A stretch of DNA of 64,000 nt. Source: Escallonia rubra. Taxonomy: Eukaryota > Streptophyta > Magnoliopsida > Escalloniales > Escalloniaceae. Positions 26,613-41,477 of the stretch are shown one piece after another. How positions within the stretch are numbered: the stretch's first letter is position 1; every line of letters begins with the position of its first letter. The stretch is taken from contig JAVXUO010001335.1 in NCBI GenBank assembly GCA_033065855.1, positions 248,001-312,000 of the forward strand, in the 5' to 3' direction. The notes below the pieces were generated by a model, which was not told the DNA's origin, ran no database searches, and worked only from the letters and a program-made list of their open reading frames with translations. The position numbers were made by a program, and so were the translations under genes.

Positions 26613-28805
26613 TCACTTCCGTAATTTTTTTTGACCCGTTGATTCTTTAATCGGACTCTTCATATGTATTGCTCGTTTTCGCCCTTTTGTTTGAGACAGA
26701 ATTGGAAAAAAAATATCGTCCTCCTCACCTTGCAGGCTAGTGCTGTCAATGACTGGCTGTGAAGCTCGATTGAATCTACCGGCTGGAGTCGCCCGAGTTG
26801 TCGGAGTGTCCCGACTTTCTGGTAATGTCATCCTAAAATGTACAAGGTTAGCCTTATCCCGTGCAGCTGCTTCAACTTGGTACATGTACCCATCAAATGT
26901 TGACGCTGCATCCAATGATAAACCGTGCATGATGTTACAAAGGTGATTATATCGCAGCGTCTCAGATTGCTCGAAATCAACTGAAACATTGGGCACGTAA
27001 GGAATGTGACCGTGTACTCTATTGGCTTCCTTCGTCCACCGATCCAAGATATACTCTGGAGGGATTTCACGAGCATTCTTGGCGCTAAAATACCTCAAAG
27101 CGTGTCGACAGAGTATACATTTATGCTCAAACAGTTGACAGTTGCAATTAACAAACCCGGTCTCCATACACACTGCTACGGTAAAATGTCTTATGTTCTT
27201 CGGAGCCGACGAAGAGCACGGATTGGCAAAATTCGTCACATTTGTCAAAGCATAAACCTTGAGATATATGTTGCATAGCTCGTGCAACTTTGTCATGCTA
27301 TATTAATTCAACTTTAGTAGTTCCTCCTGAAACTGTCTAAACATTTCCTTGGTATAGACTTGAGCCGCATGAGCCTCCAAAGGTGAAAAAACTACTACGG
27401 CTCTTTCTCTGTAAACTGTAGCCGCGTCGGCTTCTCTCTCAAGGAAAAATTGCTTGTCAAGGGCTTTCTGCATCTCTAGTACGAACTCTGTTATACTTGA
27501 AGAAGAGCGTACGTACCCATCAAAGAATGCATTCATACCTTCGCTTCTCGAGGTCGTAGTCATTCCGGCGGCAAAAAACTTTTTGGTGTAGGCACCGATC
27601 CACTGTGTCCTGATATCATACAACGCTTGCAACCATTCATGACTGTGCAAATAGTAGTCATCCATTAACTTGGCCCACCTCTCCTCGAACACGTCTACCG
27701 TCAACGATTTCTTCACACATGTATTAAAGTCACTCTTGAATGTCGGATGGTTTGCATATACATTGTGAAGTCGTTCGGGATATTTGTTGCTTATGTGCCA
27801 TGTGCACAGGCCATGGTGAGTATCTGGAAGGACCTTAGCGATTGCATTTTTCATTGCCAGATCTTGGTCAGTGATGATGGTCTTTGGAGGAATATGATAC
27901 ATTGCTTCAAGCCACGTTTCAAATAACCACGTAAATGACTCCTCCGTCTCATCCCTAAGCAGGGCAAAGCCAAACAAGATTGACTGATAGTGGTGGTTCA
28001 CCCCGATGAACGGAGCAAAAGGCATAGAGTACTTATTTGTGCGGTATGTGGTGTCAAACGTCACAACATCGCCAAAATTTTGGTAAGCAGCTCTAGAACG
28101 GGCATCCGCCCAAAATATAGTACTAATGCGGTTCTCGTCATCCAGTTGGAGACTATAGAAAAAGCCAGAATTCTCACTCTGAAGGCGCCTGAAGATATCA
28201 AGTGTAGCTTGAGAATCACTCTTACAGGAAGACTCTCTCCTCTGAGCACGAAGTTCATTTCGAAGGTCTACTTCGTTGAAGCTCAACTTGTCAACCCCCC
28301 CAGCCTGGCTTGAGAAAACCCCCATCATTCTAGAAGGTGGAATTTTAGCCTCGGCCATTGTAAATATCAGTTGTCTGTGTGCCGCGCTTATTTGTCGGTG
28401 CTGATGAATTTGACCAATCTTACTAGGGGTCATCAACTGATGATTATGGCTCAACTCCACTCCCGTCACAACCCAATGATTTTCATTTTTTCGGTGTACT
28501 GCATACACATGGGCCTTGCAGCCGGTACCCATAAATGTGTCCCTTTTTCTTTGTCTTGCTGGCCCTTCGTCACTGATCCGAACAACCGGGGGTACATGTG
28601 GGGCTCCTCTATGACACTCAAATAGTCGGGAACAAATTTGGTCTGTATTCGCCCGTTTTCTGGTCGTCTTAATTCTAACACCGAAACCTATCATTTTCGA
28701 ATATGCTCTATAGTATGCTTCAACTTCGTCCAGTATTTGAAAATTTTGACCTTTGTAAGGTGGATCAGAATTTTCACAAAAATTATTTCCTCCAATTGCA
28801 TCCAT
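26613..28805 (-). pseudogene. FAR1/FHY3-type MULE transposase with one in-frame stop
   Basis: A single intronless frame from 28805 to 26613, about 730 codons, broken only by one TAA at 27305-27303 (after ...LLKLN). Domains: FAR1 DNA-binding domain (EAYYRAYSKMIGFGVRIKTT, with ICSRLFECHRG and the C...HNHQL end); DDE core with the first Asp in FGDVVTFDTTYR, the second in ITDQDLAMK, the CTWH element, and Glu in TSRSEGMNAFFDGY; then, after the stop, a SWIM zinc finger (NCNCQLFEHKC-IL-CRH) and a basic SQTKGRKR tail. It is plainly homologous to the intact transposase at 36971-39313. The stop removes the SWIM finger. A sequencing error or readthrough is possible but not needed. Confidence 0.85.
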
Positions 28806-29214
28806 ATTTATACTGAAATCTAAAAAATAAAAATTATATCATTCTCAACAAGTCATAGAATTAAATAATTTTTTTTGGGCAGAAACAGAAATAAAATGGA
28901 ATGAAATGAAATCGAATGAAAAAGGCAAAACTTACAACCGCTAAAAAGGGTAAGTGGGGGCAACTGGGGTTTTATTAGGGTTTTTAATAGCATTTGTGGG
29001 GTAATTGTGGGGTAGCTGGGGGTTTATTTACAGTAGGCGGGGCAACAATTTTTATCGGGTTCATGTCCCTGTGTCACACGAAACAACTGAAAGAAAAAAA
29101 AAATTGTCTTTGATTCCAATCGCTACACTTAGTAGCGGTTGGGTAGTGAGTGGTGGGCCATCGTGATATGGTGTCCTTATGCGGAAAGCAATAAAAAAAA
29201 TTTAACAAAATCAT

Positions 29215-29655
29215 CACCAACTGCTACTTATGCAAAACACCCTCTGGCAGCCATCGCCCCAACAAACATCTCAGAACAACTTTAAAATAACTTTCCAGTT
29301 GTCTGACACCCCTTCCTGAACTAAAAGTCATTCAAAAATTTTTACAATGTTCAATTACCAAAATACCCTCGCTAAGCGACAAATTACCGAAATGCCTCCG
29401 GGGGTTCATTATCACCCTAACGCTCCGCAATCAGCTTCAAAACAACCTTTCAGGTGTTTTAATTACATTTATGGACTAAAAAGTCCTTTGAAAAACTTTA
29501 CCGGAAAAATTACCAAAATACCCCTCTCCGGGTGGCAAATTACCAAGATGCCCCCTGGCATCAGAAAATCTCAAAAGTGCTTTAAAATGCTATTTTAGGC
29601 TTCCTGAATTCATTCTTGATCTAAAAAGTATTTTACAAAATTTTCGCCCAAAAAT
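29215..29655. repeat. Degenerate tandem repeats, about 160-bp period
   Basis: Two clear and one weaker unit share ATTACCAAAATACCC, AAATTACCRARATGCC and a GGACTAAAAAGT-like segment in the same order. Confidence 0.55.
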
Positions 29656-30603
29656 CCCGAACCGGTGTCCGGATCGAGCGCTTAAAAGCCCGTTCGGCCA
29701 AAAAAATAGCTAACAACTTTGGAATGGCCCGAATTCCTTGTACATGGAACTTCCCAACATCCTAGGGTTCTCATAAAAGTTTCGCGTGAAATCGCGCTAG
29801 CTTGATATTTTAAATTACACTGCAAAGTTACAAGGTTCCCCGTATCAGTTAACCCATTTCCAGTCTTTGGAAAAATCTGAAATTTTTTCCTGAAATAGAT
29901 CTTTTAAAAATAACTAGGGTCTCTTTTTGTACTTTGGCAAAATCTATCTCTAGATATTTTTTATAAATTCGTGAAAAACTGTCTAATTAAGTTTTCACTT
30001 TTAGCGACAATTACGTTTCGTATTCACATTAAACACACATAGTGTTACGCACCTTAGGAACACACAGTGTCTTCTTCCTTCAACTGATCCCTCAATCGGT
30101 TTTTGACTTTTAAAAAAAATATATAAAATTCTTACGAACAATCGAGTCGAGCTGTCGATTATGGTAAGCACAATTTGAAATTAACATTGAATTATAAGAA
30201 AATTCAAAATACTTACTTGTTTTAACTTGATATATTTAAAGAAAAATCCACCGATCTTCTAGCGGTTATCCACCGATCTTCTAGTGTAAACTTGTTTTGT
30301 TTGTATTGTCGTGGAGATTATGTAGGTGAGATATGGAGTATGAAGAGAGTTGGTAAAGATGATGGAAAGTGAAACAAAGGGCTCTGTTGAGAAAGAGTCG
30401 GGGAGAACGGATTATAAAGAAAGAAAAGTGAGGGAGAGAGAAGAAAGAAGAGAGAGACAAAAATAGATCCGTGAATGAGCAGTGAGATGAGTGTAGTCAA
30501 AGGCTATGAAAGAAAAAAATTGCAAAAGACTGTCTGGCAAAGCTTTGAGCTGCATTGACTTGGCATTTCTGGAAGAAGGACATCACGCGGGGGGGGGGGG
30601 AGG

Positions 30604-30950
30604 ACACAACACTTTGTTGCAGTTGAGGGGTATGGAAAGAAACAAAAAAAATGAATAAAGGACATTATGGGGGGAAGGAAAAAGGACATCCGGGGGGGAA
30701 AGGACAGCAAAAATGATACCAACCGCAACACTTTGTTGCGGTTGGGGCCGTTTGGAATGAAAAAAAATTTTGAATGATACCAACCGCAACAAAGTGTTGC
30801 GGTTGGGGGGTTTTAGGCACGATCACAACTGCAACAAGGTATTGCAGTTGGGGATTATCTTCGTGGGCCCTCAACCGCTAGTCTTTCTTGCGATTAGGGT
30901 TGAAGGGCATTATTGTCAAAAGTTGCAACTGCATAAAAGTGTTGCGGTTG
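30604..30950. repeat. CAACCGCAACA-type palindrome array
   Basis: At least five palindromes with arms CAACYGCAACA and TGTTGCRGTTG: near 30604, 30719-30745, 30780-30806, 30826-30850 and 30926-30950. A hybrid copy lies further away at 29116-29142 (CAATCGCTACA / TAGCGGTTG). They sit in the sub-terminal region of the FAR1-type MULE and are candidate binding sites for its own protein. Confidence 0.8.
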
Positions 30951-31062
30951 TAACTTTTTCAAGAAAAAAAAAAGTCATCTGAGCCGTCCACGAGTACACA
31001 TGGACGGCAGGATTTATGGTGGAGAAATAACAATTTCTCTACCGGTGGGTGGAGATCGGCTC

Positions 31063-31064
<2 letters not shown>

Positions 31065-31135: not shown

Positions 31136-31138
<3 letters not shown>

Positions 31139-31381
31139 AGCTGATCCCTTGACAGCGCAGGCAAAATAGGATATCTTGCCAGCGCGATCTGGCCGTCCAT
31201 CCCTTCGGGATGGACGGCCCAGATCACTTTTTTTTGCGGCGCTGTCAGTCGTCCGCTACATAGTGTAGCGGACGGACCTTTTTACCATCTTGCCCTCGCT
31301 CACCCGTCCGCTAGACTGTGTAGCGGACGACATTCTTGGGCCAACAAAAAGTAGTCCGCTACACTGTCTAGCGGACGACTG
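31136..31381 (+). repeat. Left TIR of the 9.0 kb MULE
   Basis: About 246 bp, roughly 95% or more identical by eye to the right TIR, with one 11-base length difference near the inner end. Contains a perfect 13-bp-arm hairpin (31191-31219, GGCCGTCCATCCC / GGGATGGACGGCC) and three GTCCGCTA...TAGCGGAC palindromes (31251, 31306, 31354). Confidence 0.92.
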
Positions 31382-31863
31382 TTTCCGTCAAACCACCCAC
31401 TTCCCCCTGACAGTTGTCACATCAGTCGATGCACGACTGTTACTTTGTCGTTATCCCAGCGTCCGCAACACAGTGTAGCGGACGTTGGCAAGTATTCGAA
31501 ACCTTCTAAACTTCTATTCATTCCTTCTTCTCACAATCAAACTATTCCTTCTTCTCACGATCAAACCAGCGGCGTTGGCAAGTAGATCGGCGCAATTTCT
31601 TTGCAAGAAATCCTTTAATCGTCTCATCAATCACGTAAGTTCACAAACTAATCCTTTCTTTGTTCATAATCTAGAGTTCATCTTGCGGCGTTGGCAAGTA
31701 GATCGGCACTATGCTAGCGTTTGTCAATGTATATACATATATATTATATATGTGTATTGCGTATTATCTGATCACATGCTAGCGCTGAATATGCTAGCGT
31801 TGTATGTTTGGGAATGTTTACGCTTCCAACCTTGCCCTCTTTCCATTATTTCAGTTGCAAAAA
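31382..31863. promoter_or_regulatory. Leader region of the PMD gene
   Basis: Contains one more palindrome (31461-31483) and a 23-bp direct repeat starting GCGGCGTTGGCAAGTAGATC (31571 and 31685). The frame 31485-32036 through it is not supported as protein. Probably promoter and 5' leader of the downstream gene. Confidence 0.45.
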
Positions 31864-34004
31864 ATGGATTTCAACCCTGGACCAGAAGATTCGTCCGTAT
31901 TATACGACCAAGCAAACCATATCAGTACGCTCATATGGGATGGTGGAGTAAGATACTTATTTTATCGTTTATATCGTTTATTTTGCTTACGTATTTCAGT
32001 TGCGAATGTTGTATATCGTTTATTTTGCTTAAATAATATTTATTAATTCGTAGGAAAGAGCACTTGTCAACACGGTAGAAGTAAGCGATAATTTCAACGC
32101 CTGGAAATTGAACAGAACCCAGAAAAGATTACTGCGTGGGATTGGGTTTGGGATTTTCACGCATGGGCAGATCTTTCAACAACTTGACCGGCACTTAATA
32201 GGTGCCCTTGTTGAAAGGTGGAGAAGTGAAACGAATACGTTTCACTTCCCTCTCGGAGAGATGACAATTACCCTAGAAGATGTAGGGTTCATCTTAGGGT
32301 TACCGGTGACGGGGCGGCCGGTAATAGCTCATCCGTCCGAAGCAACGAATAAGAGGACCGCTAGGGACTTCTTTACTTCGATACCCCAGGATGGATTTAG
32401 CAGTGGTGGTATCAAGTTGAAGTGGTTGGTAGATACCTACGGGGTTTTGCCGGAAAACTATACGGGCCATGACCTTGTGCTGTACACACAAGCCTTCCTC
32501 TGGTGGGTGATGGGGGCAATATTATTCCCAACGACGTCGAAGAACACGGTCAGCGTCAAATATTTACCGTTTTTGCGTAACCTGGCTGAGGTTGGGGATT
32601 ATGCCTGGGGTGCAGCAACTCTTGCATACCTGTACCGAGCATTGCACAAGGCAACGAGGCCCGACTCCAAAGCGATATGTGCATGTCTCTCGCTATTGCA
32701 GGTATATCATACAATTCTTCATTACGTGCTCTTTGTTGTTTTTTTTTTTGTTGAATGGACAATAAATGTTGACGATACTTTTTTTAATGTCTTTGCTCTC
32801 AGGTGTGGTCTTATGAACACCTTGCTACCGGCGCACCCAGGTGTAGGGACGGAACAGATAATGTGTGGCCTCGGTTGTGCGCCTGGGAGTACAGCCGGAA
32901 GGAAACCCACTACGAGAGGAGAGACGATCCCCATCACAACATTTCATACTATCGGGGGGAGCTCGACTCGTTATCTCCTGGCCAGATGCGATGGGCACCG
33001 TACAAACGTTTGGCGCGACGGGTGGGAGAGTCGTTCGTCTTCACGCTCTCCGGGTTGCAACGCACACCCCTGATCCACTTCGAGGTCGCAGAGTGGCAGC
33101 TGCCAGATCGCGCTATGCGCCATTTTGACTGCCTGCAGGGGTTGCCAGCCGGCGCGCCAGATATGAGGCTTAACAGGAACCCACCGGGTGTCGGACTGTT
33201 TGGCAGGGCGAATGCGCACGAGTTGTGCGCGCGTGAAATTGAGGTCTGGAATTCCTGGCAGGACACGCTGGCGGCCATTGTGTCGGAGCCTGACCCCGTC
33301 ATCAGCATCGAACAGTACAATGAGTGGTACTACCGCATCACCCGGAGGAGAGTAGCTCCAGTAAGGTTTGAACGCGGGGAGAAGTACCACCCTAGGGGTC
33401 AGATCGATGAGCACATGGCATACAATCTGGTAAGTTGCCCAACCAGTGCTTCTAATTGAACTTGATCATTCTAAGTGTGTACGAAGTTACTTATTTATTA
33501 TCTCTCTGGATGTAGGTTAATGCCTCGTTCGCCTTCTTCCAGAAGTTGAGCGAGCGGAAGGATTTGGTGGATGCCATGGGCGAGGAGCTTCGCCAACAGG
33601 CTGAAGCGTTGGCGAATGGCTGCGGGAATTTTTTGCGGCAAGCATCGGGACACCCAAACCCGGGAATGGGTTATCCGGGGTGGCAGCGGCCGTTTGTTCC
33701 CGAGGGATGCACCGATCCCTCGGGACAGACTTCGGGAGTGAGCCAGGGATATGGTTTTCCCTCTGTACCGGAGATGGGTGGTGATTGGGGACCGCCAAGC
33801 ACCATGGGCCAGGCTCAAGCGCCGTGGGAAGATTACAGTGCGCCCTCCTTCTCTTTACTATTGGATTCGGAACCCCAACCCCTCTCTCAGAGTCAAGTCA
33901 CGCAAGACTGGGGTTTCGGAAACATCAGTCTGCCCATTGTCCCGTGGGCAGGACCATCTATTGCCGAAGGCGGGCAGTACCCCCCCGTTGACTCCCCGGA
34001 ATGA
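31864..34004 (+). CDS. Plant mobile domain protein (MAIN-like), fused frame to Ulp1 broken
   Basis: A PMD (aminotransferase-like plant mobile domain) protein. Exons: 31864-31947, 32054-32701, 32803-33429, 33516-34004, all with GT-AG introns and phase 0 joins. It starts MDFNPGPEDSSVLYDQANHI, the usual PMD opening. Then come AWKLNRTQKRLLRGIGFGIF, the FHFPLGEMTITLEDVGFILG core, LYRALHKATRPDSKAICACL, VWSYEHL and WAPYKRL. PMD proteins of the host (MAIN, MAIL1) act in silencing and genome stability; transposon copies are common. Exon 4 continues into a Gly/Pro-rich linker and ends at TGA 34002-34004 inside a short tandem repeat. The Ulp1 frame follows one base out of phase, so an ancestral PMD-Ulp1 fusion of about 940 codons is likely. 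Confidence 0.8.
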
Positions 34005-34110
34005 GTGCAATATCCCCCGTCGACCCCCCCGAAGGAGTGCAATATCCCCCGTCGACCCCCCCGAAGGAGTGCAATACCCCCCGGTCGACCCCCGAGGGCA
34101 ATATCGCAAA
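34001..34110 (+). repeat. 32/33-nt Pro-rich tandem repeat that breaks the PMD-Ulp1 frame
   Basis: Units of the type GVQYPPVDPPE. Two units, each starting GTGCAATATCCCCCGTCGAC, are 32 nt long instead of 33, one C short. Two single-base losses shift the frame exactly from the PMD phase to the Ulp1 phase. A TGA also replaces the expected GGA at the first boundary. Confidence 0.75.
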
Positions 34111-35058
34111 GGGCATCCGTTGAAGCCCCTAAAGCCGCAGAAATGCCAGATAATCAGAGAGCGTTATTTTAGCGGCTACCCGCATGACCAAGCGTTGTAT
34201 AGTGTGGATCATCCGGAGGGCATGGATTACAGTTGCTCGTGGGGAGAACTGGCCTCCCTGGCTCCGGGGAGTTGGTTAGACAACGGTGTCGTCTCCACCT
34301 ACGTGGAGATTCTGAAGGAAAGGTGTCGGCAGCAGCCGACCTATCCGGCCGTTTTTTTGTTCGATGCCTTTTTTCATGGCATCCTAGTGTCTGAATGGCA
34401 GGAGTGGGTCGAAAATAGGGGGAAGAAAAAGTTGGCCCAGTGGAGACCGTCCGTTAACCTACGAGCGTATCTTAATAGGGATAGTCCGGTGAGCGCAAGT
34501 GTTGCCGATGTGTTTCTAATCCCATTTCTAGGGCAAAGCCACTGGTACTTGGTTTGCTACTCCCCAACAAGTAAAGTCGTATCGGTGATCGACAGTCTCC
34601 ACGACGATACTCATCAGATGCCTGTGCTGCATATGTACAGAGCCCAGTTGGACTCATTGGTAATATTACGATCGCTGTATAATGCTCTGATTCTATCTTG
34701 CCATAAATTTTAACTCGTGTCTTACGCCATTTTCTGTTTCTCGCAGAATATTTTTTGTGCAATGGTCAATCGTGCGCGTAATGTCCCCGTACCGGCGCGT
34801 CCAAATCTCGATAGGCGATTGAAGAAGAGGAGGCCCAAGCAACGTAACACTTCGGACTGCGGCGTCTTCCTTTGCATGTACATGGATTTCATTTGTCGCT
34901 CTGAGAGCCTCAAGGCGGCCGTCTGGAGCCAAGCAGAAGTTGAAGCCTATAGATATAGAATAGCTTGGCAAATTATGAAAGGCCGGCCTAGAGCGGTTAG
35001 GTTTATAGAAAATCCGGCTAATGACGAGAATCCACCCCAACATGCGGACCCCAGTTGA
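34111..35058 (+). CDS. Ulp1-type (C48) cysteine protease domain
   Basis: C-terminal protease half of the broken PMD-Ulp1 frame. Exons: up to 34659 and 34747-35058 (TGA). Catalytic elements are present in order: His in GQSHWYLVCY (codon 34540-34542), Asp in VSVIDSLHDD (34591-34593), the oxyanion Gln in PKQRNTSDCG (34840-34842) and the nucleophile Cys in the same motif (34858-34860). N-terminal features typical of the fold are GSWLDNGVVSTYVEILK and FLFDAFFH. Ulp1 proteases cleave SUMO precursors or conjugates; whether this one does is not known. No ATG with good context lies close in this frame (first downstream 34222), which supports it being the continuation of the PMD exon rather than a separate gene. 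Confidence 0.8.
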
Positions 35059-36012
35059 AATTGTATCATAACAGTATTTTTTACATAAACCGTACGCCAT
35101 TGGTGTGATTTGATTTGTGTTGATTTCTGTTGTCGATTACTGATTGATTGATGAACGTTGTTGGTTTTTTGGCCTCATTGGGAATGATTGAAATGTGGAA
35201 AAAAAAAAAAAAAAAAAATTTTCTAAGTAGTGAAGTTTAGTCTTTCTGCTGTGCCGTCCGCTATACAATGTAGCGGACAAATGTAGGTAGAGAATTTTTC
35301 TAAGTGTTGATGGGTGGAGCTTTCTGCTGCGTCGTCCGCTATATAGTATCGCGAATGTAAATGAAAATCAAAAGATTCTGCTATGCCGTCCGCTACATTG
35401 TATAGCGGACGTAAAATGAAGACCAAAAGTTTTTCCTACTCCGTCCGCGATACAATGTAGCGGACGGCATAGCAGAAACTTTTGGTTTTCATTTACGTCC
35501 GCTAGATAGTATCGCGGACGTAAAATGAAGACCAAATTTTTCCAAGTGTTGATGGGTGGAGTTTCTGCTGCGCCGTCCGCTACATTGTATGGCGGACGTA
35601 AAATGAAGACCAAATTTTTCTAAGTGTTGATGGGTGGAGTTTCTGCTGCGCCGTCCGCTACATTGTATGGCGGACGTAAAATGAAGACCAAATTTTTCCA
35701 AGTGTTGATGGGTGGAGTTTCTGCTACGCCGTCCGCTACCTTGTATAGCGGACGTAAAATGAAGACCAAATTTTTCTAAGTGTTGATGGGTGGAGTTTCT
35801 GCTGCGACGTCCGCTACATTGTATGGCGGACGTAAAATGAAGACCAAACTCCGCTACATTGTATAGCGGACGTAAAATCAGTTTCTGCTATTAACGTACG
35901 ATTCACACTCAACGATCTCACTACATCGAGGGAGTCTCCAACGACACAATTAAGCAAGGAAAAATTTCGAAACACAATCAACAAGAACACAAATTATTTT
36001 ATTAATAATAAA
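35059..36012. repeat. Internal palindrome array 1 of the 9.0 kb MULE
   Basis: Between the convergent Ulp1 and B3 genes. About ten palindromes GTCCGCTACATTGTATAGCG and variants start near 35257, 35332, 35386, 35441, 35497, 35574, 35651, 35729, 35807 and 35852. From 35497 they are embedded in a tandem unit of about 78 bp that also holds AAAATGAAGACCAAATTTTT and GTGTTGATGGGTGGAGTTTC. The rest, 35890-36012, is AT-rich. Confidence 0.9.
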
Positions 36013-36483
36013 TTAGGGTTCACATTGGGGGAAAGAAATTTTTTCACAAGTGCTCCGATCAAAGATTACAACTTGAAAATCCCACCACCCAAGGTGTTCA
36101 AACACTACAAAGTCCCCGAGTTCGAGGCCATGCTGGCGCACGAAGACGTTCCAACCCTCTGCGAATTGCTTTTTTTGGGGTCGGCCGGGCTTCAGCTTGA
36201 TTTCAACCTGCCATGCCCCCTTGCGGCTATATAATCTTGCACTGTCATGAATTGTTGTAAATTGATTGGTCAAGGCTTCCGGTATGTCCTAACAAACACA
36301 ATACACAAAAAATAGGTTAGTTTTTAACCAAAAGATCAAACCTTTAACACACGAAAATACAGAGATAGAGGGATGGCATACAAGTTCATTCTCAAACCCC
36401 GGCATCATGACTTTGAAAAAGTGTTTGCCTGCCAGGTGCAAGTTGCCAATAAAATCGTAGGTGGTCTCCGATCCAGAAGCCAT
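36013..36483 (-). CDS. Small B3 DNA-binding domain protein carried by the MULE
   Basis: Two exons, 36483-36382 and 36288-36013, joined in phase 0 across a short GT-AG intron, give about 125 aa: almost exactly one B3 domain. Landmarks: GKHFFKVMMPGF, DIPEALTNQFTT, KGAWQVEIKLKPG, FAEGWNVFVRQHGLELGDFV, VFEHLG, FQVVIFDRSTCEKI. The layout matches plant REM-type B3 domains, which bind DNA. Nothing else (no repression motif, no second domain) is present. It lies between the two palindrome arrays and next to the transposase on the same strand. I infer that it may bind the element's own repeats. Capture from a host REM gene is the simple alternative origin. Confidence 0.85.
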
Positions 36484-36639
36484 CGAGGTCGGCGTTGAGG
36501 GGGGACGGTTAATCGCCGGAGTTGTGGGTCACCGGAGATGTGGGTCGCCGGAGATGGAGTAGTTCGAGACAGAGAGAGTGCCCTCCAGATAGGACTGATA
36601 ACAGCCGATTGCCCGATATGATTAATATATATCATATAG

Positions 36640-36830
36640 ACTTATCCGCTACATTGTATAGCGGACGTAAAAGAAGACCAAAAGTTTGCCACCTGTGACG
36701 TCCGCTACATGGTAGAGCGGACGTAAAAGAAGACCAAAAGTTTGCCTGCTGTGACGTCCGCTACATTGGATGGCGGGCGTAAAAAGACTAAAATTCGATT
36801 ACGTCCGCTACATTGTATAGCGGACGGGGC
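36640..36830. repeat. Internal palindrome array 2 of the 9.0 kb MULE
   Basis: Four palindromes (near 36646, 36699, 36754, 36804) of the type TCCGCTACATTGTATAGCGG, in units of about 54 bp that also contain GTAAAAGAAGACCAAAAGTT. They lie upstream of the B3 gene and just downstream of the transposase stop, so they may sit in the B3 promoter. Confidence 0.9.
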
Positions 36831-36970
36831 TTACAAAAAAAAAATTGAAATAAAGACTTTAGATTTGATTCGATGGCCTCTCATAGGTCCATTTTTAAAA
36901 AATTTCAGTACTCGGTCGAAAAATTATCCCTCCGAAAATTATTACAAATGTCATAAAGTTGTACAAAAAA

Positions 36971-39313
36971 TTAAAGGTCCACTGCAGCTTGTTCGTCCTC
37001 ATCTTCGGCGTCACCTTCTTCCCCGTCTTGCAAACCCCCTGAACTTATCCCCAGTGCCTTGTAATGGTTCCGCTTGTCGTGGTCGGTCATTTTGTTGCAC
37101 AATGCACACCTTCGCAGCTTTTTAGGTTGAGTTGCCGTTTCAATAGAGCTTTTCATCCGCGTAGATCTCTTGCGGCCTTTCGTTTGCGATATAATTGGAT
37201 CCAACAAACGGATATCATTGTCGTCTTCCTCCTCCGGCTCGTCATCTTCTGATACCCCCGTCGTAGGCTCGGTGTCAATCGCATTGGTGACTGAAGCTGC
37301 TTCCAACTGGTCGACGATGGGCTCTTGTTGCTGAGCTACCTCGAGGAGATGTTTATAACCGACCATTGTAGCAGCACCCTTTACGGACAAACGGGTGAAC
37401 ATCGTCACCAGATGATTATACCGCAACGTCTCTGATTCTTCAAAGTCAGTATACGGGTGCTCCGGAAAGGAAATGGTACCGTGCAACCTGTTTGCACCTT
37501 TTGTCCACCGTGGCAAGACGTATTTATCGGGGATTGTCCTGATATTCTTCTGGGTGAAAAACCGCAGAACGTGTCTACACAGGATGCCATGGAACTCAAA
37601 CTTCTTGCAAACACATGTCACCGAGTCCGTCAATGTGTCGTGGCTCACCGTATACATTCTGCGCAGCTTCTCAGGGACGAGGTCATTCACGAGCGAATAA
37701 ACCTTGTACTCACGCGTAGACATTTCTGCCACCTTGTTTATACTGTATCGTCCGGATTTTCGCAGCTCTACTTGGTATAGCAAGAAGATCTCCTTCGTAT
37801 AGACTTTGGCACCGTTCAGCTCCAGCGGGGTCTCGAGCAACGTTCTCCTTTGTTTGTACGTTGTTGCAAAGTCGGCAGCCCTTTCTTTTACGAACAACGA
37901 AGCTACCGCTTTTTGTGCGGATGCAACGAAAGTCTTCAAATTGGTAGCTGTACCCACATAACTATCGAACGTGGCATTCATGGATTCACTCCTGCCCGTC
38001 GTTTTCATGCCCGCTGAAAAATACCTCCTCGTGTAAACGCCAATCCATTGCTCTTTGCGCTCGTACAAGTGCTGGAGCCACTCGTTGTCTTGCAATGAGT
38101 AATCCCGAACAAGCTTTTCCCACCTCTCCTCGAATTCCTCAATCGTTAACGACTTGAGGACGCACTTGTCAAAATCCTGTTTAAAGTCTTGATACTTTGC
38201 GTACACGTGATGCAGCCGTTCCGGGTATTTGTTGCTTATGTGCCAGGTGCACAAGTTGTGCCGAGTGTCTGGGAAGACGGTCGCAATAGCCTTCTTCATT
38301 GCCAAATCTTGATCGGTGATGATCACTTTGGGTGCTTTGAAGTTCATTGCTTCCAGCCACGTCCTAAACAACCATTCAAAAGAACTCTCGGTCTCGTCCC
38401 TTAACAAGGCGAACCCGAACAGGATGGAGTGATAATGATGATTGACCCCCGTGAAAGGGGCGAACGGCATCGAGTACTTGTTGGTACGGTATGTGGTGTC
38501 GAACGTCACGACATCCCCAAAATGCTTATAAGCAAGCCTCGAACGACCGTCGACCCAAAAAATTGTGCTAACTCGATGCTCGTCGTCAAGTTTATAATCG
38601 AAGGTCAACTGCGGGTCCTCCATCTGCATCCGTTTCAATAGGCTCATTGTGGCTTGAGCATCATTGAGGTCATACGCGGCTCGTCTATGGGTTCGGACCG
38701 CGTTACGAACGTCTGTCGTGTTAAAGGTCAAATTTTGAATTCCCCCAGCCTGTTCAGCAAGAACATTAATCATGTCGGTAGGTCCTAGTCGCGCATTGCT
38801 CATTGTGTGAATTAGGCTCCTCGCGACCTTACCCATCTTCTTGTGTTGATGCATCTGACTCACCTTAGAAGGGGTTACTAACGGGTGATTGTGTGCCAGT
38901 TCCAGGCTGGTAATAAGCCAATGGTCTTGCTTGGGTTTGTAGCTTACGAACATCTTGACCTGGCAATTTGTGCGCTCAAAGCAGTCCCGTCTTCTACGCG
39001 GATATCCTATTTCGTCATCACTGTCATCATTGCCTACGCGTGTCTCATTTTGCACTGGGTTTCTGCTCCTATGGCACTCGTATAAGCGAGAGCATATCTT
39101 TCTCGTTATGGTGCTCGTTCTTGAAGTCTTTATTCTAATGCCAAAACCAACCCTCAATGAATACGCTCGAAAACATTCTTCAGCTTCTTCCAACGTAGCA
39201 AATGTTCGTCCTAGATACGGATCACTAGCATCTACGGGGACGTTGGAGCTCGACACGAAATCAGACATTGTGAAACAAGAGCTGTGTAGAAATAGACTAC
39301 GCTTAACAATCAA
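36971..39313 (-). CDS. Intact FAR1/FHY3-type MULE transposase
   Basis: One uninterrupted intronless frame of 780 codons; the better start may be the second Met (MSDFVSSS, 39268). Domains by residue: FAR1 DNA-binding domain about 40-146 (EEAEECFRAYSLRVGFGIRI, ICSRLYECHR, NCQVKM, LAHNHPL); MULE DDE core with D272 (VVTFDTTY), D334 (ITDQDLAMK), CTWH at 355-358 and E443 (TTGRSESMNATFD); SWIM zinc finger C567, C569, C579, H581; a basic SQTKGRKR segment and a C-terminal CALCNKMTDHDKRNH cluster; an acidic end. It should cut and rejoin element ends by recognising the TIRs. All catalytic residues are present, so the element could be active if expressed. Host FAR1/FHY3 transcription factors descend from such transposases, but the location inside matched TIRs makes this a transposon gene. 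Confidence 0.93.
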   Translation of the reverse strand: MIVKRSLFLHSSCFTMSDFVSSSNVPVDASDPYLGRTFATLEEAEECFRAYSLRVGFGIRIKTSRTSTITRKICSRLYECHRSRNPVQNETRVGNDDSDDEIGYPRRRRDCFERTNCQVKMFVSYKPKQDHWLITSLELAHNHPLVTPSKVSQMHQHKKMGKVARSLIHTMSNARLGPTDMINVLAEQAGGIQNLTFNTTDVRNAVRTHRRAAYDLNDAQATMSLLKRMQMEDPQLTFDYKLDDEHRVSTIFWVDGRSRLAYKHFGDVVTFDTTYRTNKYSMPFAPFTGVNHHYHSILFGFALLRDETESSFEWLFRTWLEAMNFKAPKVIITDQDLAMKKAIATVFPDTRHNLCTWHISNKYPERLHHVYAKYQDFKQDFDKCVLKSLTIEEFEERWEKLVRDYSLQDNEWLQHLYERKEQWIGVYTRRYFSAGMKTTGRSESMNATFDSYVGTATNLKTFVASAQKAVASLFVKERAADFATTYKQRRTLLETPLELNGAKVYTKEIFLLYQVELRKSGRYSINKVAEMSTREYKVYSLVNDLVPEKLRRMYTVSHDTLTDSVTCVCKKFEFHGILCRHVLRFFTQKNIRTIPDKYVLPRWTKGANRLHGTISFPEHPYTDFEESETLRYNHLVTMFTRLSVKGAATMVGYKHLLEVAQQQEPIVDQLEAASVTNAIDTEPTTGVSEDDEPEEEDDNDIRLLDPIISQTKGRKRSTRMKSSIETATQPKKLRRCALCNKMTDHDKRNHYKALGISSGGLQDGEEGDAEDEDEQAAVDL

Positions 39314-39904
39314 ATGGCATTTCTAACTGAAAATATTACCTAAAAATTACCTTGGCGAATAGACCAATTTAGGATGACAAACATACGGTATGCATAATCT
39401 CAAAAGTGTCTCCAAATTAACAATTATTAATTTATTGAACATAACAAATTTAAATTAGTAAGATAAATAGACGAATTCATCATGCCAAAAAATCGAATTA
39501 AACTATAATGAATTAAATATAAAGTTAACAAATTATACCTTTTTGATGAACATCATGTCTAGAACATCACAAAAAATCTAGAGTATAAAATCACAAATTG
39601 ATGAATACAGTGACAAATTTCTAGAACATCAAGAAAACTTGAAGCAAACTTACCTTGCTTGAGCGAAGCTTGAAGCAAGTGTTACTCGAAGCTTGAAGGC
39701 AGCTGAAAATGGAAGCGAGTCCGAAGGAGAAGAAAATTGTGCTGAAAGAAAATTGAGTAGAAGAAAATTGTGCTGAAAGAAAATTGAGTAGGTTTTGGGG
39801 ATGGGCAATACTGTCCGCTATACTGTGTAGCGGACAGCATTGCCGACAACAAGTCACACTTGTGTCAAACAAGTCACACTTGTGTCAGAATTACATAGTT
39901 GTGA
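39314..39904. promoter_or_regulatory. Upstream region of the transposase
   Basis: AT-rich non-coding DNA between the transposase start and the right TIR. It contains an AGAAAATTG(TG/AG)-type short direct repeat (about 39730-39790) and one palindrome at about 39811-39833 (GTCCGCTATACTGTGTAGCG). No CDS. Confidence 0.5.
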
Positions 39905-40160
39905 CAGTCGTCCGCTGGACAGTGTAGCGGACTACTTTTTGTCGGACGATGTGGGCCCAAGAATGTCGTCCGCTACACAGTCTAGCGGACGGGTGAGCGA
40001 GGGCAAGATGGTAAAAAGGTCCGTCCGCTACACTATGTAGCGGACGACTGACAGCGCCGCAAAAAAAAGTGATATGGGCCGTCCATCCCGAAGGGATGGA
40101 CGGCCAGATCGCGCTAGCAAGATATCCTATTTGGCATGCGCTGTCAAGGGATCAGCTCCC
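39905..40160 (-). repeat. Right TIR of the 9.0 kb MULE
   Basis: About 256 bp, the inverted partner of 31136-31381. Contains the hairpin at 40077-40105 and palindromes near 39908, 39968 and 40022. Ends ...GGGATCAGCTCCC at 40160 and abuts TA repeats. Confidence 0.92.
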
Positions 40161-40177
40161 TATATATATATATATAT

Positions 40178-41277
40178 GGGTAAATTACACACGGCACCCC
40201 TGAGGTTTACCCTAAATTACACACGGCTTGGCCTAAGAATTTTTGTTACACTAAGCCCCCTGTAGTTTGTCATTTTATTACATAAGACCCATTTCCGTTA
40301 GGGCACCGTGAGAAAAAAATAGGGCAACATTGGTTTATTACGATATACCGAAAATACCCTTATGTGTTCCTCTTCCCTCTCACCAGAAAAAGCCAAGTTA
40401 TCGCCGCCACTTCTGCCCGCCATCACTGGCGACGCTGCATCACGGAGAGAGCAGGGGAAGGGAGAACACGCTGCATCACGGATGCCTCTCTCTCTCTCTC
40501 TCTCACTGGATGACGGCGACTCATCATTCGGCGTCTCGTCGCGGCCGAAGGAGTCGATCACCACCGCGAACCCATCGTTCGACGATGGCGACGTCGCCAC
40601 CAAGGACATCCACATGACCTCACATCTCTCCATCCACATCTTCCTGATTGAATTGATCTACACCTCACTTGTGTGAGAGATTCATCAGGAAAAACCCTAT
40701 TTTTGATGCAATCTCCTCACAAATCAATTCCCAAAGTACACTTATACCTACCCAATGAAATGAATGGGTAGTCTCCTGTGAACAGGGGAAAGACTGAGAG
40801 AGAGAGAGCGGCGGCGGCAGCCACGAGGTAGACCACCGGCAACTCTGGCGACCGCCGGTGACGACGGGCCTCACCTTCGGCAGATCTTTGAAGAGGGGAT
40901 AGACTAAGAGAGGGAACAACGGAGACCATCGAAGACCACCGGCTCCTCGTTCGGCGTCTCGTCGCTGTCGGAGGATTCAATTGTCGCCTGGATAACAACG
41001 GCATCTCGGGCATCTCGTCGCGACCGGAGGAGTCGATCGTCGCCGCAAACCCGTCGTTCGATCGGCGACGGCGGCGCCACCACCAAAGACATCCACATCG
41101 ATCCCCTCACCTCCCTCTACATCCGCATCTTCCTCCCAAACACCTGCCTCGGCTTTGATCTCAAATCTAAAGCCGCTAGGGGTTAGGGCAGGGACGAAAG
41201 GATCAAATTCGAATTTCGGATCCATTCCGAAAGATCAGAGCTCCAGCCTCCACCTTTCCTTGGCATTAATTTGATCC

Positions 41278-41310
<33 letters not shown>

Positions 41311-41477
41311 CGAGGGTAAATTGACTTGTTTGTTAGGGGTATGACCGTCATTTCATCAATTTTGTTAACTCTGTTAACGGAAAAATAAAAATATGTAGCT
41401 TAGTGTAATTTTCAAAAGGTAAGGGGGTCCGTGTGTAATTTAGGGTAAACCTCAGGGGGTCCGTGAGTAATTAACCC
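40178..41477. mobile_element. Non-autonomous MULE in the TA tract
   Basis: Termini GGGTAAATTACACACGGCAC and its inverted partner (GAGTAATTAACCC) delimit 1300 bp. The flanks are TATATATAT (40169-40177) and TATATATTA (41478-41486), 8 of 9 matching. The interior is GC-rich and contains a diverged direct duplication (about 40529-40655 and 41010-41135, sharing GGAGTCGATC, CCGTCGTTCGA/CCATCGTTCGA and GACATCCACAT), plus a GA microsatellite. Frames across it match nothing I recognise; it may contain captured host exons. Only the (TA) tract of 17 bp separates it from the 9.0 kb MULE. Confidence 0.85.

Follow-up and report, generated by a model that had tools for sequence, protein, structure and literature searches.

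A FAR1-type MULE of Escallonia rubra with a PMD–C48 fusion gene, a B3 gene and palindrome arrays: a possible VANC-like anti-silencing cassette

This study describes a complete MULE of 9,025 bp at positions 31136–40160 of a 64,000-nucleotide stretch of Escallonia rubra DNA (the window), which contains three genes with four domains: a FAR1-type transposase, a gene in which a plant mobile domain (PMD) is fused to a C48 protease, and a stand-alone B3 gene. It is best read as an autonomous FAR1-type MULE that has multiplied recently and in which an accessory cassette is resident. The cassette may serve as a VANC-like, sequence-targeted anti-silencing system, an interpretation that is preferred tentatively and rated at somewhat less than an even chance. 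The best-described escape of a plant transposon from silencing is that by VANC of Arabidopsis VANDALs, and the present element belongs to a different MULE lineage. The cassette of its family is conserved, the candidate target sequence is precise, natural sites exist by the thousand and many copies are near-identical, which makes the anti-silencing idea directly testable by binding assays and methylation maps.

The element, which lies inside a (TA)n microsatellite, starts with GGGAGCTGATCCCTTGACAGCG at 31136 and is closed by the complement of this sequence at 40160, both ends being exact. Its long terminal inverted repeats (TIRs) are located at 31136–31382 (plus strand) and 39904–40160 (minus strand), with 228-nt arms that are 98% complementary and a further 42-nt arm (95%) in the left TIR. 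The target-site duplication of MULEs is 9–11 bp long; TA-rich repeats flank 16 of 16 visible left ends and 17 of 18 visible right ends of the copies, where a duplication is indistinguishable from the repeat. The transposase is encoded by a single intact exon on the minus strand (36971–39268, 765 aa) with Pfam matches to MULE (PF10551, 3.9e-33), FAR1 (4.1e-13) and SWIM (5.4e-5); every match in the window reported here for the transposase, PMD, C48 and B3 is above the curated cut-offs. The motifs DTTYRTN, TDQDLAM and GRSESMN, which we take to contain the catalytic D, D and E residues, are present in 21/21 copies. The combination of FAR1, MULE and SWIM domains is that of the transposases of Jittery/FAR1-type MULEs, from which the element is set apart by its accessory cassette.

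The genome holds at least 57 transposase copies; the 57 scored, the window copy included, are all 99–100% identical, and 55 of them have no stop. The copies were picked by transposase similarity, and intactness was therefore dropped as a sign of within-family selection. The genome also holds at least 150 C48 copies (identity 92–100%), at least 240 B3 matches and 2,369 TIR candidates. Among the 40 full-length TIR matches scored, 31 have a C48 among the matches listed, on the same strand and within 6 kb, and 15 of these 31 loci have no transposase among the matches listed. The transposon family is very abundant in this plant genome.

The PMD–C48 fusion gene (31864–35058, plus strand), as delineated by Pfam, splice sites and reading frame, consists of five exons (31864–31947, 32054–32701, 32803–33429, 33516–34659 and 34747–35058). 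The PMD is matched at 32054–32701 (4.7e-49) and 32803–33435 (8.8e-17), and is joined by a linker of tandem repeats (33982–34093, plus strand) to the C48 domain of the Ulp1/SENP type (34106–35058, plus strand), for which the Pfam matches in the window are at 34006–34665 (1.5e-4) and 34750–35058 (3.5e-6). An alignment of the C48 domain to SENP2 (8.6e-14) includes the catalytic His, Asp, Gln and Cys, and C48 is matched at 3.1e-13 in the Pfam comparison that included the open 949-aa PMD–C48 protein of another copy, L028. The repeat unit of the linker is 33 bp long, and many copies keep it in frame; in the open ones the unit reads EGVQYPPVDPP (11 aa). The window copy has a frameshift in the linker, and its PMD frame stops at a TGA at 34002–34004. 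The splice sites are nearly invariant across the copies, with L027 and L029 as the exceptions. The B3 gene (36013–36483, minus strand) has two exons (exon 1, 36382–36483; exon 2, 36013–36288) and encodes 125 aa, with the Pfam match at 36016–36288 on the minus strand (1.1e-8). A preliminary description of this DNA had named one pair of near-identical TIRs enclosing an intact FAR1-type transposase with its DDE residues, a PMD, a C48 protease with its His/Asp/Gln/Cys set and a stand-alone B3. All of these were recovered, the four domains by Pfam; its view of them as four separate modules was dropped, as PMD and C48 form one gene.

The same description had asked whether PMD, Ulp1 and B3 are retained together and under purifying selection, and had named their random loss among copies as a mark of chance capture. 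In the 20 further copies read directly, one of which (L032) is truncated where its contig stops, PMD DNA and C48 DNA were each kept in 20/20 and a full-length B3 in 18/20, B3 being lost or truncated in the other two, so that joint retention was borne out. In the genome-wide comparison, which covers the 150 of 240 B3 matches listed and in which a one-residue variant falls under the cut, 14 of the 57 transposase copies and 10 of the 40 TIR copies have a listed B3; these counts were set aside as a measure of B3 presence or absence, in favour of the 18/20 from direct reading. A second, diverged subfamily contains all four domains in the same gene order. The DNA identity between the subfamilies is 71% for the TIR, 81% for PMD and 68% for C48, and the block of B3 and transposase is far more alike than the left half and the TIRs, with 94% amino-acid identity in the transposase. 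The dN/dS values between the subfamilies are 0.29 (0.21–0.41) for PMD, 0.21 (0.14–0.32) for the transposase and 0.65 (0.47–0.87) for C48; as judged from these sequence comparisons, purifying selection is evident on PMD and the transposase and appears weaker on C48. Within the family, the shared changes in C48 (46 replacement to 7 silent) give no depletion of replacements, and those in PMD give a non-significant deficit of replacements. The question of selection is thus answered positively for PMD and the transposase and more weakly for C48, and B3 (three silent and two replacement changes between the subfamilies) is too similar to be judged. The invariance of B3 was dropped as proof of selection, because intron and exons of the gene are equally invariant within the family. 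Two frames of subfamily 2, of 144 and 153 codons, have no significant Pfam family (best E values 0.12 and 0.033).

These comparisons make it very improbable that the cassette is a chance capture, i.e. a Pack-MULE-like load of functionless host gene pieces. MULEs capture host genes (PMC13317346, PMC8616336, in the parts available), and nearly all of the PMD–C48 copies read are broken; however, the cassette consists of complete spliced genes instead of fragments, the gene order is identical in two diverged subfamilies, PMD and the transposase are under purifying selection, and a third, diverged PMD-repeat-C48 gene (L005) keeps the catalytic residues. It is distinctly unlikely, if less so, that PMD–C48 is a selected general factor, desumoylating or competing with host PMD proteins without being targeted, and that B3 is an ordinary activator or a passenger of the right half. 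The dN/dS values below 1 for PMD and C48 agree with such a factor, B3 is without evidence of protein-level selection, and the similarity of the B3/transposase block looks as if the right half had recently been exchanged. Against this, both subfamilies have B3, and B3 is open in 18/21 copies, whereas the much longer PMD–C48 gene is fully open in 2/21 (with the incomplete L032 among the 21).

A feature overlooked in the preliminary description is a rigid palindrome, GTCCGCTA-N7-TAGCGGAC, of 23–25 bp, which occurs in the TIRs (three exact palindromes in the left, two exact and one with one mismatch in the right) and in other noncoding DNA of the element. Its half-sites number 34 in the 9-kb element, none of them in the 5,484 coding bases, with 0.8 expected, and a single half-site is found in the other 55 kb of the window. 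All 12 exact pairs in the window element, and 13 of 14 in subfamily 2, have a 7-nt spacer, and exact sites number 11,428 genome-wide, with 0 for the reversed control. Two noncoding arrays are formed by tandem units, one between PMD–C48 and B3 (35257–35870; units of 54–55 and 78 bp) and one from the 5' side of B3 to the 3' end of the transposase gene (36645–36826; 56-bp unit). No palindrome was found inside the alignments of PMD–C48 (introns included), transposase or B3 of the copies read; isolated half-sites lie inside the PMD–C48 gene in 3/21 copies and also in subfamily 2.

Subterminal repeats are transposase binding sites in other cut-and-paste elements, and the palindromes could likewise be sites at which the FAR1 domain of the transposase binds for transposition and autoregulation, PMD–C48 and B3 being unrelated to them. 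The presence of palindromes in both TIRs, and the good conservation of the transposase (94% identity, dN/dS 0.21) between subfamilies having the motif in common, speak for such a role; however, 14 of 22 sites are in internal arrays between the genes, more than 3 kb from either element end, where the transposase should need none, and this explanation is considered possible but rather unlikely.

In the preferred anti-silencing reading, a dimeric DNA-binding protein encoded by the element would recognize the palindromes on all copies, with B3 as the first candidate and the FAR1 domain of the transposase or PMD–C48 itself as alternatives. The PMD–C48 protein would be brought to the palindromes, or would act near them, and might strip SUMO off silencing factors and/or compete with host PMD proteins; repressive marks would then be lost from the copies, leading to transcription and transposition. 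This logic would be that of VANC in VANDAL elements, but in another MULE lineage. Singleton transitions among the copies occur in excess at cytosines of CG and CHG sites, which is read as a trace of DNA methylation, so that there would be silencing to counter. Within palindromes (sites with up to two mismatches), CG has changed no less than neighbouring C, giving no sign of protection. The comparison with VANC that had been made beforehand gains from the palindrome array and from a relative matching DUF1985 (see below), and it is weakened by the state of PMD–C48: nearly all copies read lose its frame after insertion, which counts against the anti-silencing reading.

According to the available parts of the sources, VANC contains DUF1985 together with tandemly repeated peptide motifs and binds to short sequence motifs located in noncoding tandem repeats (PMC5735166), and occurs in Arabidopsis VANDAL21 and VANDAL6, including Ulp1-carrying VANC/Kaonashi (KIU) forms (PMC5735166, PMC10398659, PMC13317346). 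As far as described there, the present element has in common with these a MULE transposase accompanied by another protein whose variable region contains tandem peptide repeats (and which has a C48 domain, as in KIU), an accessory protein that diverges faster than the transposase, and a short family-specific motif in noncoding tandem repeats. Unlike the non-TIR VANDALs, it has long TIRs, a FAR1-type transposase, an extra B3 gene and a motif that is a 23–25-bp palindrome. MULEs with captured PMD-C genes have been reported from grasses and Amborella by Ikeda et al. (2017; PMC5418596), who already suggested an anti-silencing use; in the available text the PMD is reported as fused to the transposase, whereas here it forms, with C48, a fusion gene that is spliced and separate from the transposase, and it is accompanied by B3 and palindromes. 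Transposase and C48 are likewise combined in grapevine, where MULE and CACTA elements carry ULP1-like regions (PMC2528002), and such regions in melon and rice elements are cited in PMC2528002 and PMC13317346; as described in the parts available, these elements are without PMD, B3 and a palindrome array. Searches of the open-access literature, with subscription journals and preprints outside their scope, found nothing for PMD combined with Ulp1 or C48 or for B3 with FAR1, TIR, Mutator and transposase, and, for PMD with B3 and transposon, gave a single paper, on LTR elements.

The N-terminal domain of the accessory protein here scores as PMD, unlike that of VANC, and clear DUF1985 scores are obtained only for relatives. 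The window PMD exon matches DUF1985 at only 0.069 and the PMD of subfamily 2 at 0.24, and the full L028 protein gives no match to DUF1985, or to the DUF287 of VANC, up to an E value of 5. The L005 gene matches DUF1985 at 1.2e-7, below the curated cut-off; in its group, 11 of the 12 loci with listed PMD matches are also matched by the DUF1985 profile, two of them over the cut-off, in-frame neighbours included. MULE-borne PMD genes would bridge to DUF1985; if true, this would tie the host silencing factors MAIN/MAIL1 to known anti-silencing proteins. The fuller proposal, that B3 reads the approximately 11,400 genomic 23–25-bp palindromes, that the PMD–SUMO-protease fusion is the effector and that MAIN/MAIL1 and VANC are two branches of one domain superfamily on opposite sides of one pathway, is speculative and, taken as a whole, unlikely. 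The sequence of the repeat linker differs among the three PMD–C48 genes, and the L028 protein also matches DUF7745 at 1.1e-5.

The MULE occupies positions 31136-40160, exactly as first delimited, and is complete: it measures 9,025 bp, is set in a (TA)n microsatellite and is bounded by TIR arms of 228 nt with 98% identity. The four domains named in the preliminary description all exceed the Pfam curated cut-offs, but splice sites and the comparison of copies resolve them into three genes rather than four modules, with the plant mobile domain (PMD) and the C48 protease fused. The PMD-C48 gene (31864-35058, plus strand, five exons) joins PMD to C48 via a tandem 33-bp (11-aa) repeat, and is followed by the B3 gene (36013-36483, minus strand, two exons, 125 aa) and the transposase gene (36971-39268, minus strand, single exon), which contains MULE, FAR1 and SWIM domains. 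The His, Asp, Gln and Cys residues of C48, which we take to be catalytic, are all in place in an alignment to SENP2 (E = 8.6e-14), in agreement with the earlier reading. A short element with 49-nt inverted ends (GGGTAAATTACACACGG..., 92%) adjoins the right TIR at 40178-41477.

The 566 Mb assembly contains at least 57 transposase copies including that of the window, with 99-100% identity and no stop codons in 55 of the 57, a count that is a lower bound because scoring was limited to the best candidates. At least 150 C48 copies were found at 92-100% identity, and the B3 search gave 240 matches, of which the best 150 were listed. The 20 next-best transposase copies out of the 56 besides that of the window were fetched for reading, and they align to the window element over its length as far as each stretch permits. 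PMD, C48 and B3, whose joint retention had been proposed as a check, are kept together: PMD and C48 DNA is present in all 20 further copies (the 5' part of L032 is cut off by the contig end) and B3 is full-length in 18, being truncated in L022 and missing from L038. Of 21 copies, 18 have an open B3 frame, with L035 also broken. The PMD-C48 gene of the window copy has a frameshift in the linker, and among the 20 fetched copies the whole frame is open in two (L021, 938 codons; L028, 949 codons), where exons were cut at the columns of the window copy and an indel at an exon edge was scored as a frame change. All five checked transposase motifs occur in 21 of 21 copies, which is no evidence of selection because the copies were chosen by transposase similarity. 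Among the matches listed, C48 accompanies 48 and B3 14 of the 57 scored transposase copies, and the 40 full-length TIR matches scored, a sample drawn independently of the transposase, have a same-strand C48 within 6 kb in 31 cases, transposase in 16, B3 in ten and C48 without transposase in 15; in these counts, a missing partner does not equal an absent one.

The B3 search exposed a group of copies with another open-frame length, subfamily 2, one of which (contig C1213, 66400-78700, four adjoining stretches) has the gene order of the window element: PMD(+), C48(+), B3(-), transposase(-). Its DNA identity to the window copy is approximately 71% in the right TIR, 81% in PMD, 68% in C48 and 92% in the transposase region, and exon 2 of its B3 has zero amino-acid differences. 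This copy is broken, since its C48 and transposase span more than one reading frame; a shorter stretch of another subfamily 2 copy (L040) matches it at 92.5%. The subfamilies are clearly more alike in the right half, comprising B3 and transposase, than in the left half or the TIRs, which suggests that the right half was exchanged between them. Between C48 and B3 the C1213 copy has two short frames of 144 and 153 codons, alike by eye, for which a Pfam search gave no significant match.

Purifying selection (dN/dS below 1) had been named as a further test, and between the subfamilies the PMD and the transposase are under selection, with dN/dS of 0.289 (bootstrap 0.211-0.408; 425 codons) and 0.212 (0.143-0.318; 765 codons), respectively. 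The value for C48 is 0.653 (0.471-0.871; 270 codons), whereas that for B3, 0.167 (0-0.908; 125 codons), is uninformative with only three silent and two replacement differences. All values probably lean upward, because both compared copies include post-insertion decay. Once inserted, the genes of family members decay, and shared replacement to silent changes are 15:11 in PMD, 19:6 in the PMD tail, 46:7 in C48, 7:7 in the transposase and 2:0 in B3. A replacement deficit relative to the no-selection expectation is seen in shared and singleton changes of the transposase, by which the copies were ascertained, and in PMD-tail singletons (28 silent versus 18 expected); none was found within the family in PMD, C48 or B3. 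Singleton transitions in the PMD-C48 alignment are most frequent at CG (62/404 sites) and CHG (42/313), followed by CHH (60/999) and A/T (22/1,604), a cytosine-methylation signature from which we infer that these copies were methylated in the past and silenced by the host.

The finding is larger than the preliminary description stated. A palindrome array was absent from that description. The element contains 34 copies of TCCGCTA or its complement, against a Markov-model expectation of 0.82 per element; none falls in its 5,484 coding bases, and the remaining 55 kb of the window has one. These half-sites pair as TCCGCTA-N7-TAGCGGA, and the spacer is exactly 7 nt in 12 of 12 exact pairs in the window element and in 13 of 14 in subfamily 2. 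With up to three mismatches allowed, the element has 22 palindromes (all with at most two) and the rest of the window two (both with three); when repeated two-arm motifs were sought irrespective of sequence, the palindrome ranked first in the element with 12-14 occurrences, and no motif exceeded two occurrences in the rest of the window. Each TIR contains palindromes, and others form tandem arrays that flank the B3 gene on either side, with units of 54-55, 78 and 56 bp. Subfamily 2 has 18 by the relaxed pattern, none in coding stretches and most of them in intergenic DNA that aligns poorly or not at all to the window; two isolated half-sites lie inside its PMD-C48 gene. In the read copies, the alignments of PMD-C48, transposase and B3 contain no palindrome but three isolated half-sites (L022, L026 and L035). 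In the whole genome, GTCCGCTA-N7-TAGCGGAC has 11,428 exact occurrences (reversed control 0), which at the mean of 10.9 palindromes per read copy would correspond to about a thousand element-equivalents. A related motif, AACCGCTAC-N5-GTAGCGGTT, occurs 251 times (control 0), and among the matches listed contigs C9 and C12 show palindrome clusters with the centre CATTATG/CATAATG, perhaps a third subfamily.

That the spacing stays fixed across contexts suggests that the palindrome is read by a protein binding DNA as a dimer. One element-encoded protein would bind it, and B3 is the first candidate: it consists of a DNA-binding domain on its own, and no other protein is as conserved between the two motif-sharing subfamilies, PMD-C48 having diverged. 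However, VANC21 has no reported B3 domain yet binds its motif, and the FAR1 domain of the transposase is a serious alternative. With B3 or another binder, palindrome binding would counter silencing, and C48 would strip SUMO from silencing factors. The gene content of the element confirms the combination first reported, and its anti-silencing interpretation is supported in part.

The single parts have precedents. Excerpts of Hosaka et al. (PMC5735166) describe VANC proteins, the anti-silencing proteins of Arabidopsis VANDAL elements, as having DUF1985 and DUF287 domains together with variable regions that contain tandem peptide motifs, and locate the motifs they target in noncoding tandem repeats within the same element family; according to excerpts of a 2026 review (PMC13317346), an Ulp1 domain (KIU) is present in some VANC genes. 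MULEs have captured PMD-C genes twice, for which anti-silencing was speculated, in excerpts of Ikeda et al. (PMC5418596). The combination with B3, a FAR1-type transposase and a palindrome array was not found in an open-access literature search. The PMD-C48 gene resembles VANC/KIU, as excerpted, in layout, but the full L028 protein gave no DUF287 match up to E = 5. A third, strongly diverged PMD-repeat-C48 gene (L005, contig C815) retains the catalytic residues with a different linker repeat, is 52% and 42% identical in PMD by exon and 30% and 51% in C48 by piece, and has no TCCGCTA half-site in 4.1 kb. Its PMD matches DUF1985 at 1.2e-7, below the curated cut-off, and DUF7745 at 1.1e-6, and another PMD (L008) matches DUF1985 at 2.9e-4. 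Genome-wide, among the matches listed, the DUF1985 profile also matches 11 of 12 L005-type PMD loci, two of the 11 exceeding its cut-off with neighbours in frame. Matches of the PMD exons are weak in the window (0.069) and subfamily 2 (0.24); there was none in the full L028 protein up to E = 5, nor up to E = 10 in four tandem PMD genes on contig C922 (approximately 1.278-1.297 Mb), which appear host-like, with the domain wholly in one open frame. The element is not a VANDAL; it may act in the manner of the VANC/KIU system, to which its PMD-C48 gene is possibly related.

Window positions 29463-29928 match the left flank of the L005 gene at 88%, inverted, which suggests that the neighbouring MULE family also pairs a FAR1 transposase with PMD-C48. 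The neighbouring MULE (26616-31064) has a TIR-like end, GATCGGCTCCC, at 31064 and a broken FAR1-type transposase gene (26616-28802, minus strand; 49% amino-acid identity), and its own palindrome, the related motif AACCGCAACA-N3-TGTTGCGGTT, has 551 exact occurrences in the genome (control 0). Elsewhere in the genome, the C48 matches at C1734:41610-42200 and C699:39200-39790 fall within open reading frames of 2,025 and 1,969 codons, compared with 218-432 at the other matches listed, perhaps reflecting a strongly expanded repeat linker.
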